Of a stretch of 22,754 bases of DNA, positions 9,867 through 13,545 are shown one piece after another. A model generated the notes under the pieces. The model searched no databases. It saw only the letters and a program-made list of their open reading frames with translations, and had not been told where the DNA came from. Position 1 is the first letter of the stretch. Every line of letters starts with the position of its first letter. Position numbers and translations under genes: made by a program. This DNA comes from a virus. The DNA lies in the IMG/VR virus record IMGVR_UViG_3300030333_003323, positions 1 to 22,754 of that record. The stretch is one strand, 5' to 3'.

Positions 9867-9891
9867 AAAAAATAAAAAAAGTACTTGACAA
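9864..9891 (+). repeat. 28-nt promoter repeat, copy 1 (A-tract plus -35)
   Basis: An exact 28-nt match to 18856-18883. It starts with the T of the upstream stop codon, runs through two A-tracts (8 and 7 A, separated by T) and ends with GTACTTGACAA. The A-tracts lie where an UP element would contact the RNA polymerase alpha subunit. Confidence 0.8.
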
Positions 9892-9913
9892 AGTTTCAAA
9901 ACGATGTTATATT
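9885..9913 (+). promoter_or_regulatory. Promoter with A-tract UP-like element, ahead of SH3-like and gp32 genes
   Basis: TTGACA (9885-9890), 17-nt spacer, TATATT (9908-9913), extended-10 TG present. The A-rich block 9864-9880 directly upstream should strengthen it. It probably drives the small SH3-like gene and the gp32-type SSB gene, whose product is needed in large amounts. Confidence 0.8.
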
Positions 9914-10209: not shown

Positions 10210-10213
10210 CCAG

Positions 10214-10260
10214 ATGCTTGGGAAATTTGCCAAGCATACTTTAGGGTAATTAACCCAAAT
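10214..10260 (+). promoter_or_regulatory. Hairpin or possible pseudoknot in the SSB leader
   Basis: A perfect 8-bp stem (10214-10221 with 10230-10237) encloses GAAATTTG. Loop bases ATTTG (10225-10229) can pair with CAAAT (10256-10260), giving an H-type pseudoknot 65 to 19 nt before the SSB start. A smaller hairpin GGGT/ACCC (10244-10256) would compete. In T4, gene 32 mRNA has a leader pseudoknot, at about -67 to -40, used by gp32 to repress its own translation. Similarity of position is seen; function is inferred. Confidence 0.4.
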
Positions 10261-10278: not shown

Positions 10279-11034
10279 ATGGGTATTGACATGAAGAAGA
10301 TGCGGGCTAAGCTCGCAGCAACACAAAATCGAGGAAGCGGACGAACTTCACAGTTCTGGCGTCCTCAAGACGGCGACCAGACCGTCCGTATCGTTCCGAC
10401 TGCGGATGGCGACCCCTTTAAGGAGTACTGGTTCCACTACAATCTCGGCAAGAACGCTGGGTTCCTGAGCCCGAAGAAGAACTTCGGCGAGGACGACCCG
10501 CTTGATTCGTTCGTCCGTCAACTCTTTAACGAGGGTACTGACGAGAGCATCAAGATGGCTAAGAATCTGATGGCTCGCCAACGGTTCTTTGCTCCGGTCA
10601 TCGTCCGTGGCGAGGAGAACAAGGGTGTTCGAGTCTGGGGATTTGGAAAGACTGTTTACGAGCAGCTTCTGAATCTGGTGCTTAATCCTGAGTACGGTGA
10701 TATCACCGACCCTGAGACTGGCACCGACCTTCAGCTAAACTATGGCAAGCCTGCTGGAGCAGCCTTCCCGCAGACCAAGCTGATGCCGTCTCGCCGAACT
10801 TCGGCAATCTGCCCTGACATTTCGCCAGAGCAGTGTGCAGAGCTTCTGGAAAGTGTTCCAGACTTCAACACACTCTTCGAGCGCAAGACGCCAGAAGATG
10901 TTCAGCGTATGCTGGATGAGTACCTTACCGACGATGAGTCGGCTGAGGAAATGTCCAGCGAGACGACTCAGTATGGTGGCAACACCACGTCGTCTAACAG
11001 CGTGGAGCAGGCATTCAACGACCTACTTTCATAA
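10279..11034 (+). CDS. gp32-type single-stranded DNA-binding protein
   Basis: A 251-residue protein, ATG 9 nt after a strong AAGGAGG. The N-terminus is basic (MKKMRAKLAATQNR), like the cooperativity region of T4 gp32. It is followed by FWRPQDGDQTVRIVPT, the pattern that opens the OB-fold core in this family. The core continues to about residue 195 (KEYWFHYN, RQRFFAPVIVR, VRVWGFGKTVYEQL). The C-terminal 45 residues are acidic and Ser/Thr rich, as in gp32, where the tail binds replication partners. I do not see the Cys/His zinc site of T4 gp32. The leader hairpin suggests autoregulation, and a structured repeat follows the stop. Confidence 0.8.
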   Translation: MGIDMKKMRAKLAATQNRGSGRTSQFWRPQDGDQTVRIVPTADGDPFKEYWFHYNLGKNAGFLSPKKNFGEDDPLDSFVRQLFNEGTDESIKMAKNLMARQRFFAPVIVRGEENKGVRVWGFGKTVYEQLLNLVLNPEYGDITDPETGTDLQLNYGKPAGAAFPQTKLMPSRRTSAICPDISPEQCAELLESVPDFNTLFERKTPEDVQRMLDEYLTDDESAEEMSSETTQYGGNTTSSNSVEQAFNDLLS

Positions 11035-11041
11035 GTCGTTA

Positions 11042-11075
11042 TCCGCAGGGGGGCACGGGACTACAGGTGCCCCAA
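11042..11075 (+). repeat. Intergenic structured hairpin element, copy 1
   Basis: Stem GGGGCAC (11050-11056) pairs with GTGCCCC (11067-11073) around a 10-nt loop GGGACTACAG. The 34 nt here are identical to 11605-11638. It lies 8 nt after the SSB stop and 30 nt before the FKBP start. No run of T follows directly (AACATTTT), so it is at best a weak terminator. Confidence 0.8.
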
Positions 11076-11104
11076 CATTTTAACTAAAAAGGAATTTTTA
11101 TATT

Positions 11105-11581
11105 ATGGCAAATGCAGTAAAGGTACAAACGGGACAAACTGTCAACGTACACTACACAGGAACTCTCTCTGACGGCACCGAGTTTGATAGCTCACACACC
11201 CGAGGAGAACCCCTTACTTTCGAACTTGGCTCTGGTCAGTTGATTGCTGGGTTTGATTCTGCTGTAACTGGGATGGCTGTTGGAGAAACCAAGCAGGTTA
11301 CTCTGGAGCCGAGTCAAGCTTACGGCGAACACAACCCAGAGCTTATCCAAGAAGTTGCAAAGGATGCATTCCCACCCGATTTTAATTTCGAGGTTGGTGG
11401 TGTTGTCCAAGGTCAAAACGCTTTGGGTCAGCCGGTTTTCGCAACGGTGCAGTCGATTGGTGACGAGGCTGTTAGTCTTGACATGAACCATCCGATGGCA
11501 GGAAAGACCCTGACGTTCGATATTGAGTTGGTCGGTGTGAACGAGGAAGAGAGCACTACGACTGACGCAACAGAAGAATAG
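11105..11581 (+). CDS. FKBP-type peptidyl-prolyl isomerase (SlyD/FkpB-like)
   Basis: A 158-residue protein. VHYTGTLSDGTEFDSS (15-30) is the FKBP opening; GQLIAGFDSAVTGMAVGE (44-61) holds the helix and active-site region. The segment that follows (YGEHNPELIQEV through GGVVQGQ) is the 'insert in flap' chaperone domain of the SlyD/FkpB group. The chain returns with MNHPMAGKTLTFDIELVGV to close the fold. It lacks the long His/Cys metal tail of SlyD; instead it ends in an acidic Thr/Glu tail. No signal peptide, so it acts in the cytoplasm, probably helping folding of phage proteins. It is flanked by two identical 34-nt hairpin repeats, which makes it look like an inserted accessory gene. Confidence 0.9.
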   Translation: MANAVKVQTGQTVNVHYTGTLSDGTEFDSSHTRGEPLTFELGSGQLIAGFDSAVTGMAVGETKQVTLEPSQAYGEHNPELIQEVAKDAFPPDFNFEVGGVVQGQNALGQPVFATVQSIGDEAVSLDMNHPMAGKTLTFDIELVGVNEEESTTTDATEE

Positions 11582-11604
11582 GTCTGCACAAATAAAGCGA
11601 CCTT

Positions 11605-11638
11605 TCCGCAGGGGGGCACGGGACTACAGGTGCCCCAA
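11605..11638 (+). repeat. Intergenic structured hairpin element, copy 2
   Basis: Identical over 34 nt to copy 1. Stem 11613-11619 pairs with 11630-11636; loop 11620-11629. It lies 24 nt after the FKBP stop and 30 nt before the first lipoprotein start. AAATTTATATT follows, again not a clear U-run. Confidence 0.8.
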
Positions 11639-11667
11639 ATTTATATTACACAAGGAGAGGAAGAAGA

Positions 11668-11913
11668 ATGAAGTATTATTTCATGCTAGCCGCCACTGCC
11701 GTATTCATGACATTCATGGTTGCGGGCTGTGACGATGAGAAGTCATCCGACACAAGTGCCGATACTGCTGTTGAAGCAGCAGACACGAGTGCTGAGACTG
11801 CTCCCAGCGATACTGCCGACAGCGACACTGGTGACAGTGACACTGGCGACAGCGACAGCGGCGATACTGCTGAAGTCGAAGATACTGGTTCTGATGCTGA
11901 AGTGTCGGATTAG
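11668..11913 (+). CDS. Small acidic lipoprotein 1
   Basis: An 81-residue protein, ribosome binding site AAGGAGAGG. Residues 1-20 are a lipoprotein signal; the lipobox is VAGC with Cys21. Asp occupies +2 and +3 after the Cys, which in Escherichia coli keeps lipoproteins in the inner membrane. The mature chain is nearly all Asp, Ser, Thr, Glu, Ala and Gly, including three DSDTG-type units, so it is disordered and strongly negative. Phage lipoproteins are known as outer spanins or superinfection blockers; neither can be shown here. Similar Asp/Thr-rich lipoprotein stalks are common in some deltaproteobacterial-type genomes, which may hint at the host. Confidence 0.75.
   Translation: MKYYFMLAATAVFMTFMVAGCDDEKSSDTSADTAVEAADTSAETAPSDTADSDTGDSDTGDSDSGDTAEVEDTGSDAEVSD
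11818..11862 (+). repeat. 15-nt tandem repeat, three copies (DSD[TS]G)
   Basis: Units 11818-11832, 11833-11847 and 11848-11862 each encode Asp-Ser-Asp-Thr/Ser-Gly with mostly synonymous or single-base differences. Such a repeat can change length by slippage. Confidence 0.8.
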
Positions 11914-11928
11914 TTTTACTATATGCCA

Positions 11929-11960
11929 CGGGGAGGCACAGGCTGAACAGGTGCCTCAAC
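11929..11960 (+). repeat. Intergenic structured hairpin element, copy 3 (diverged)
   Basis: Stem GAGGCAC (11933-11939) pairs with GTGCCTC (11951-11957); loop AGGCTGAACAG. Relative to copies 1 and 2, one G-C pair has become A-T on both sides of the stem (a compensatory change), while GGCAC, ACAG-GTGCC and the trailing CAA are kept. It lies between the two lipoprotein genes, 19 nt after the first stop. Confidence 0.75.
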
Positions 11961-11989: not shown

Positions 11990-12385
11990 ATGAAAACCAC
12001 ATACCTAGCTGCATCACTCGCAGCTATTTTTTTGATTGGCTGTCCTAGCGGCGAAGAGCCAGAACCCCGAGCAGAAATTTCATCAGAATGTGCTCAAGCC
12101 TATGCAGTGTATATGGTGGATGCTGCTGGTAGCGAACACCGTGCATGTTCCGCTGCCGCCTTGGTACTAGCGAGTGACCCCGTTGAATGGGACCGCTATC
12201 ACCGTCAAGTGTGGGATAACCCTGCTGACGAGTTGGTGGAAGCTTGCGGTGGCAACAACAGCGACATTCGCTTGGAGTTACTGAGTGAGAGAGAGATTAT
12301 GCGCTTTCGTTGCATCGTTGGTTTTACATCCTTGCCCGACGATGTTTGCGAAGGTTACGACCCAACCCTTTGTCTAAACGATTAA
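11990..12385 (+). CDS. Cysteine-rich lipoprotein 2
   Basis: A 131-residue protein. Residues 1-17 are a lipoprotein signal with lipobox LIGC (Cys18). The mature part starts PSGEEPEPR, a short linker, followed by a small domain with six further Cys that could form three disulfides in the periplasm. I recognise no family. The ribosome binding site is weak (TGGAAG, about 10 nt away), so expression may be low or coupled. It follows hairpin copy 3 and precedes the recombinase gene by 17 nt. A cell-surface role such as blocking superinfection is a guess; an outer spanin is less likely because no inner spanin is adjacent. Confidence 0.7.
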   Translation: MKTTYLAASLAAIFLIGCPSGEEPEPRAEISSECAQAYAVYMVDAAGSEHRACSAAALVLASDPVEWDRYHRQVWDNPADELVEACGGNNSDIRLELLSEREIMRFRCIVGFTSLPDDVCEGYDPTLCLND

Positions 12386-12402: not shown

Positions 12403-13545
12403 ATGGCGAGAACAAAGAAAAATAATAATAAGGCTGGCAAGCTTTCCATCGCAGACATGAGAAAGCTTGTCAACAAAGCCGCAGGTCGTGAGGTTGCCTA
12501 TAATCTCACAGACGATAACCCAACACAAGTCAAAGAGTGGATTCCAACGGGCTCACGGTGGCTTGATAGTATTATTTGCAGAGGGCACCTCGCTGGCATT
12601 CCAGTCGGCAAGGTTAGTGAGATTGCAGGTCTTGAAGCGACTGGTAAATCCTTTTTGGCAGCACAAGCAGCATCCAATGCTCAGAAGATGGGGATTGATG
12701 TTGTTTATTTTGACGCAGAGTCTGCCATTGACCCAAGTTTCTTGGAAAAGGCTGGGTGCGATGTTGAGCGTGTACTATATGTGCAGGCAGAATCGGTTGA
12801 ATTTGTTCTCGAAACAATTGAGTCCCTTCTCGCCAGCGCCGAAAATAAAATTTTATTTATTTGGGACAGTCTTGCTCTGACTCCAAGTGTTACAGACATT
12901 GAGGGCGATTTCAATCCCCTGAGTTCCATGGCAGTTAAGCCTCGTATTCTCTCGAAGGGGATGGCAAAGTTGGTGCAGCCTATTGCTAACGCTGGCGCAA
13001 CACTTTTGGTACTCAATCAATTAAAAACAAATATCACAAGCAATGTGGCAGAAGCCATGACCACCCCTTATTTTACGCCGGGTGGAAAGGCGATGCACTA
13101 TACATATAGCTTGCGAATTTGGTTGACTGGGCGCAAAGCTAAAGCGTCATTTATCACAGACGACCGAGGCTATCGCATCGGCTCCGAGGTGAAGGTCAAA
13201 CTAGAGAAGTCTCGATTCGGAACGCAGGGTCGGCAGTGTGCATTTAAAATCCTTTGGGGAGATGCTGTCGGAGTGCAGGACGAAGAGAGTTGGCTTGAGG
13301 CTGTCAAGGGTTCTGAACACTTAACTAATAGCGGAGCGTGGTACACACTCCATTATGCCGATGGGACTTCGGAGAAGTTTCAATCTGCAAATTGGCTTGG
13401 TAAGCTTGAAAATGAGAAGTTCCGAGCACGAGTACTTGAACTGATGGACAATGAAATTATCCTTCGCTTCCAGAATCGTGAGGGGAATGCAAGCGACTAC
13501 TACGAAGTGGACCCGCAAGAAGGAGGTGAGGAAACTAACGCTTAA
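12403..13545 (+). CDS. uvsX: UvsX/RecA-type recombinase
   Basis: A 380-residue protein with AAAGGAGAG before ATG. The Walker A motif is GLEATGKS (76-83). The strand and acidic residue that follow (VYFDAES, Glu106) match the catalytic Glu of RecA. The Walker B strand is ILFIWDS (Asp155). NQLKTNI (near 206-212) matches the segment leading to the DNA-binding L2 loop. The protein forms filaments on single-stranded DNA and drives recombination-dependent replication, working with the SSB encoded upstream. The C-terminal 40 residues are acidic. It sits between RecA and T4 UvsX in character, so either label fits. A terminator follows the gene. Confidence 0.85.
   Translation: MARTKKNNNKAGKLSIADMRKLVNKAAGREVAYNLTDDNPTQVKEWIPTGSRWLDSIICRGHLAGIPVGKVSEIAGLEATGKSFLAAQAASNAQKMGIDVVYFDAESAIDPSFLEKAGCDVERVLYVQAESVEFVLETIESLLASAENKILFIWDSLALTPSVTDIEGDFNPLSSMAVKPRILSKGMAKLVQPIANAGATLLVLNQLKTNITSNVAEAMTTPYFTPGGKAMHYTYSLRIWLTGRKAKASFITDDRGYRIGSEVKVKLEKSRFGTQGRQCAFKILWGDAVGVQDEESWLEAVKGSEHLTNSGAWYTLHYADGTSEKFQSANWLGKLENEKFRARVLELMDNEIILRFQNREGNASDYYEVDPQEGGEETNA

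Follow-up and report, generated by a model that had tools for sequence, protein, structure and literature searches.

A covarying pseudoknot behind SSB genes of uncultured T4-like phages, a candidate leaky terminator

Background

A canonical intrinsic (Rho-independent) terminator combines a GC-rich hairpin with a U-run from +1, and in E. coli the proximal U-tract is important for intrinsic termination. Ribosomes also repress E. coli terminators near a stop codon, and full strength is reached beyond about 30 bp (PMC4824070). In T4, T2 and RB69, an H-type pseudoknot in gene 32's own 5' leader is the autogenous operator of gp32, and the T4 protein binds this pseudoknot, behind which come AU-rich sequence and the ribosome site (PMC535899, PMC3014915). 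Two further RNA families are of interest here, namely the STAXI motif, a pseudoknot RNA near Ssb genes that is often repeated and consists of tandem repeats with UUCG loops (PMC2864571), and the L17 downstream element (RF01708), a conserved structure that lies in the 3' UTR of a gene for a nucleic-acid-binding protein. Here we describe an RNA element that recurs three times in a 22,754-nt stretch of DNA (hereafter the window), taken from the 45-kb record of an uncultured T4-like phage that is probably marine.

Results

Three copies of the element in the SSB operon

The operon and its signals comprise the following features:

9885..9913, + strand: near-consensus promoter of sigma70 type (TTGACA-17-TATATT), ahead of the SSB operon
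10212..10240, + strand: SSB 5'-leader hairpin, ATGCTTGG / CCAAGCAT, loop GAAATTTG
10279..11034, + strand: T4 gp32-type SSB (Pfam gp32 PF08804, E 1.3e-13; PHROG 1192)
11042..11074, + strand: pseudoknot copy 1, type G, starting 7 nt past the SSB stop; P1a TCC 11042-11044, L1 GCAGG 11045-11049, P2a GGGGCAC 11050-11056, L2 G 11057, P1b GGA 11058-11060, L3 CTACAG 11061-11066, P2b GTGCCCC 11067-11073, A 11074
11105..11581, + strand: FKBP-type peptidyl-prolyl isomerase (Pfam FKBP_C, E 4e-27), between copies 1 and 2
11605..11637, + strand: pseudoknot copy 2, type G, 23 nt past the FKBP stop, with parts as in copy 1; TCC 11605-11607 pairs with GGA 11621-11623, and P2 11613-11619 with 11630-11636
11668..11913, + strand: small, probable lipoprotein 1 (ORF with a VAGC lipobox-like start), between copies 2 and 3
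11925..11958, + strand: pseudoknot copy 3, type A, 11 nt past the lipoprotein 1 stop; GCC 11925-11927 pairs with GGC 11941-11943, P2 GAGGCAC 11933-11939 with GTGCCTC 11951-11957; L1 ACGGG, L3 TGAACAG
11990..12385, + strand: small, probable lipoprotein 2 (ORF with an IGC lipobox-like start), behind copy 3
12403..13545, + strand: UvsX/RecA-type recombinase (PHROG 97 UvsX-like, E 1e-55; Pfam RecA), at the operon end

Neither lipoprotein gave a Pfam match, nor lipoprotein 2 a PHROG match, and no promoter was seen between SSB and uvsX in the window. The lipoprotein 1 gene contains an imperfect 15-bp tandem repeat (11794-11853) encoding a D-T-G/D-S-rich tail.

The initial annotation had reported three copies of a covarying hairpin in consecutive gaps, and the repeats are real, all on the + strand behind the SSB, FKBP and lipoprotein 1 genes. 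The first two, which follow SSB and FKBP as it had stated, are indeed identical over 34 nt (11042-11075 and 11605-11638), and the third carries the described G-C to A-T change on both sides of the stem (GAGGCAC/GTGCCTC versus GGGGCAC/GTGCCCC). Copy 3 does follow lipoprotein 1, but its bounds, previously placed at 11929-11960, had to be corrected to 11925-11958. The element begins further 5' than a simple hairpin because the TCC or GCC before the RCRGG segment pairs with the GGA or GGC of the loop; the earlier description was right about a covarying structured RNA, but missed the pseudoknot fold that makes it more than a plain hairpin. A covariance-model search, which had been proposed as a check, recovered all three copies together with relatives, and the wider alignment does covary. 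With a model built from relatives and window copies, copies 1, 2 and 3 score 55, 55 and 49 bits (E 6e-11 to 1e-9), and no fourth copy was found by this model in the whole 45-kb record. A pattern based on copy 3 gave 0 matches in 100 dinucleotide shuffles.

Structure and covariation

Each copy is well supported by comparative sequence analysis as an H-type pseudoknot, in which a 3-bp helix (P1, NCC/GGN) crosses a 7-bp helix (P2), and compensatory changes were observed in both crossing helices. From 5' to 3', the 33-nt element is made up of P1a (NCC), L1 (RCRGG), P2a (7 nt, GAGGCAC), L2 (one purine), P1b (GGN), which pairs with P1a from within the P2 loop, L3 (5-8 nt, mostly ending in CAG), P2b (7 nt) and a final A. 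An alignment of 89 distinct copies shows C-G as the outer P1 pair in 41, A-U in 21, U-A in 5 and G-C in 4, the remainder being UG (3), GU (1), unpaired (2) or gapped (12), while double changes were found at 4 of the 7 P2 pairs. Overall, 99.4% of the pairing cells in these copies are paired, compared to 23-54% in controls with slid partners. The two inner P1 pairs are invariant in the same set, in part by construction of the filter, and one locus (L066) reads, by eye, CGC-GCG, with an inner P1 pair changed. In the SSB-derived set, chosen without reference to the outer pair, this pair is standard in 81 of 84 copies, and at least five changes at it, some of them not full double changes, map onto the SSB tree for the SSB-adjacent copies. 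The window copies, with TCC-GGA, TCC-GGA and GCC-GGC as P1, themselves carry the covariation of the family.

The conserved loop bases pointed out in the initial annotation are borne out by the aligned family. Moreover, the first base of L1 varies together with L2 in the SSB-derived set (G/G 43, A/A 38, A/G 3, G/A 0; counts that shared ancestry may inflate), a coupling that points to a purine-purine pair stacking beneath P1. In 27 of the 89 copies, one of the P2 pairs is G-U instead of G-C, where the opposite strand would have A-C, and the structure is thus selected on the sense RNA. A plain hairpin model was rejected, as the covariation of P1 is with the loop rather than the local GGG; the rival CCC/GGG local hairpin in L1 displayed no covariation, and its pairing was no better than in shuffles. 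Large L3 insertions are tolerated, as seen in a copy at L026 (1900-1966) with a small hairpin (GAAAC...GTTTC) inserted in this loop.

Distribution and genomic setting

A protein search with SSB yielded 80 loci (66-83% identity), about half of which carry the element in the sequence after the SSB stop. A pattern screen of viral contigs, filtered for a loop of 5-9 nt and a CC/GG core, yielded at least 336 distinct copies in at least 242 loci; the broad regex scan was noisy (746 matches versus 403 in reversed controls), so the filtered set alone was used, and since some scan patterns fix bases, counts sensitive to such bias were redone on the SSB-derived loci alone. Among the matches listed, the median distance from the stop codon to the element is 9 nt (IQR 7-12), and that from the element's end to the next start codon is 28 nt. 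The copies lie within operons, and SSB is the upstream gene in 152 of the 252 listed copies that were found by pattern alone. The downstream gene varies among these matches (uvsX, a 160-residue protein, FKBP, others), and it is only the upstream gene and its spacing that are conserved. At two loci (L314, L350), the element occupies a site that has nothing to do with SSB, flanked by another conserved gene and one that was identified by eye as MoxR-like ATPase-type.

When 22 contigs of 38-222 kb were scanned, 19 matched, with one to three copies each, and a general terminator used genome-wide was rejected on the basis of these low numbers. The cultured phages gave no match to the element, and in the nearest cultured SSB relatives checked, SSB and RecA are either a few nt apart or SSB lacks an adjacent RecA. 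A scan of GTDB returned two chance matches and one true copy, in a WOR-3 MAG (L392, CP070664.1), whose contig carries the SSB leader, SSB, the pseudoknot and uvsX. As this copy again lies between SSB and uvsX, it is probably viral, either a prophage or phage sequence that ended up in the bin, and a host-borne element was rejected. When the window and ten related loci were compared with Rfam 15, which includes STAXI, no family reached the gathering threshold and the only hit was one weak chance match; no description of the element was found in the open-licence literature. The pseudoknot family appears to be uncatalogued and abundant in uncultured T4-like phages.

Exchange with terminators, and the tail

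What follows SSB was classified for 81 genes: the pseudoknot in 37, a GC hairpin with a U-run in 21, one small gene and then the pseudoknot in 17 (17/17 confirmed by the model), and neither in 6, where the counts of 21 and 17 include automatic labels corrected by hand. The predicted hairpin-plus-U-run terminators of the sister phages occupy the site of the pseudoknot, with similar spacing from the stop codon, and no pseudoknot was found in the flanks of the terminator-type loci searched, except for one locus (L065) where both are present. At least three switches between pseudoknot and terminator were counted on the SSB tree, a quick tree with many weak branches. Two sister loci (L011 and L012) share one homologous hairpin (GGCAGAC/GTCTGCC) with different tails, ACATTTTT and TTTTTT. 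This hairpin could also form the NCC-GGN crossing helix, and ACATTTTT is a tail of the pseudoknot type; judged by these sequences, the pair looks like an evolutionary intermediate.

The tail of the pseudoknot differs from the canonical terminator arrangement, in that the U-run does not start at +1. The first base is A in 85% of copies and is followed by two mixed bases, with U frequencies of.08/.27/.42 at +1 to +3. At +4 to +8, U frequencies rise to.64/.74/.63/.57/.48 and G is nearly absent; the frequencies compared from 15 predicted sister terminators are 1.0/.73/.67/.53/.40. U frequencies close to those of terminators are therefore only found at +4 to +8, meaning that only the distal half of the U-tract is retained. 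The earlier statement that the copies lack a proper U-run accordingly holds for +1 to +3, but not for the U-rich and almost G-free stretch behind it in the family.

A near-consensus promoter (10 or more of 12) was detected in the 400 nt ahead of SSB at 59 of 73 loci, but the 400 nt behind its stop codon contain one at only 4 of 71. The genes after the element thus seem to depend on read-through, and a terminator at this position must leak. Few strict hairpin-plus-U-run terminators occur in these genomes overall, with 4 in a 193-kb pseudoknot phage and 7 in a 136-kb terminator-type phage.

A second conserved structure in the SSB leader

In all 37 aligned relatives, the SSB leader hairpin has a conserved loop (RANATTTG) on an 8-bp stem that covaries freely, with double changes at 8/8 stem pairs and 98.6% pairing. 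Of 14 contigs, 12 contain it, each a single time, and it gave no Rfam match. Many relatives have a small GGG/CCC-type hairpin after it, located at 10244-10256 in the window.

Discussion

The exchange with terminators at one site, together with the retained distal half of the U-tract, makes a role in termination or 3'-end formation the leading reading. With moderate confidence, and judging from sequence comparison, we propose that the intercistronic pseudoknot bounds the SSB message at its 3' side, acting as a leaky terminator or attenuator that would limit transcription from SSB into uvsX. RNA polymerase would initiate upstream of SSB and transcribe it, after which the 7-bp helix, locked by the crossing 3-bp helix, would fold in the wake of the polymerase during transcription of the U-rich positions +4 to +8. 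A fraction of polymerases would pause or stop at this stretch and the rest would continue into the FKBP and lipoprotein genes and uvsX, leaving SSB expressed well above uvsX. Since the fold begins about 9 nt past the stop codon, P1a would lie beneath a ribosome that is completing SSB, and read-through may hence depend on SSB translation; we infer this dependence, as we do termination and its leakiness. Three consecutive copies would starve uvsX unless each was weak. A more specific version, which we put forward tentatively, is a new class of terminator, consisting of a pseudoknot and a spaced, distal-only U-tract in place of the hairpin and full U-run, whose strength would be set by the ribosome completing SSB and which would couple SSB supply to uvsX expression. 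Besides the risk that three consecutive copies pose for uvsX, it speaks against termination that the loop sequences are far more conserved than plain termination needs and that the proximal U-tract is missing from the tail. The suggestion in the initial annotation that the element does more than terminate therefore retains some ground, as the conserved loops leave room for processing or a bound protein, though a termination or 3'-end role leads.

The main rival, which we consider possible though somewhat improbable, is a function in mRNA processing and stability. Here, transcription would read through, an RNase E-like enzyme would cut in the AU-rich tail directly behind the pseudoknot, and the fold would block 3'-5' exonucleases, so that the SSB segment outlives the RNA downstream. 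The intercistronic site and the three tandem copies suit processing better than strong termination, the conserved loops suit a compact fold, and an RNase E site near the stop codon of T4 gene 32 mRNA is conserved in T4 relatives (PMC3014915). PMC5222698 gives RN^WUU as the RNase E-type consensus, and 42% of the copies fit it at +1, given the A at +1 (85%) and the U-rich single-stranded tail. This fraction of 0.42 is, however, barely higher than the 0.34 obtained as the product of column frequencies, and a consensus clearly above column expectation was rejected. The exchange with U-run terminators, and a U-tract with the same endpoint, favour termination instead.

Translational control appears less likely, and we regard it as improbable. 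In this reading the pseudoknot would be bound by SSB (gp32-like) or a different phage protein, which would then extend across the AU-rich leader of the following gene, much as T4 gp32 acts on its own leader. The SSB is a gp32 relative, the loop bases are conserved, and an AU-rich sequence leads to a start codon about 28 nt past the element, all of which would fit such an operator. However, no true copy was found upstream of SSB in the SSB loci, where a gp32-type operator would be located, the upstream gene and its spacing are conserved instead of the downstream gene, and in relatives of terminator type the SSB is the same but the pseudoknot is absent. In addition, all relatives examined, ordinary-terminator types included, have the different covarying hairpin in the SSB leader, and this hairpin is, on its conservation, a better candidate for an SSB autoregulatory operator than the pseudoknot.

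A riboswitch or other small-molecule sensor is very unlikely: the pseudoknot is compact with invariant loop bases, and phage-borne riboswitch candidates exist (manA and wcaG; PMC2864571), but the downstream genes are mutually unrelated, the element adjoins the upstream stop codon, and neither an alternative expression platform nor an Rfam match was seen. An H-type pseudoknot about 6-9 nt past a stop or slippery codon is the classical recoding geometry, and most listed copies show this spacing, but a recoding or readthrough signal acting on a terminating ribosome about 8 nt upstream was rejected as highly implausible, because among these matches no reading frame is preferred in the spacing (116/107/108) and the stops are of all three kinds (TAA 192, TAG 107, TGA 32), and because plain terminators take the same site with similar spacing.

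If the leaky-terminator reading is true, pseudoknot termination would widen the definition of an intrinsic terminator; mRNA protection or processing, if true, would make the pseudoknot a compact 3' stability tag. The element covaries strongly and, at 33 nt, is short; testing it would be easy.

Comparison with known systems

The element resembles STAXI in being a pseudoknot RNA near SSB genes that is often repeated, but it does not share the tandem UUCG-loop organization, nor did it match Rfam 15. The L17 downstream element likewise lies behind a nucleic-acid-binding protein gene, but differs in gene, hosts and structure, and again the element has no Rfam match.

SSB, a central replication gene, is bracketed here by two conserved RNA structures, which invites comparison with the autoregulation of T4 gene 32. 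The gene 32 leader pseudoknot is alike in being H-type, in belonging to the mRNA of a gp32-type SSB in T4-like phages, and in having AU-rich single-stranded sequence next to it. Unlike that operator, the element follows the SSB stop, recurs after other genes and is exchangeable for a terminator, and the leader position is held by a different hairpin (10212-10240). The gene 32 system is therefore instructive as a comparison, but the element is not a member of it.

Finally, the element is similar to intrinsic terminators in its GC-rich stem near the stop, its U-rich +4 to +8 and its use of the site of the sister terminators, and it departs from them in being pseudoknotted, with conserved loops, and in having A-C/A-A/U in place of the proximal U-run.
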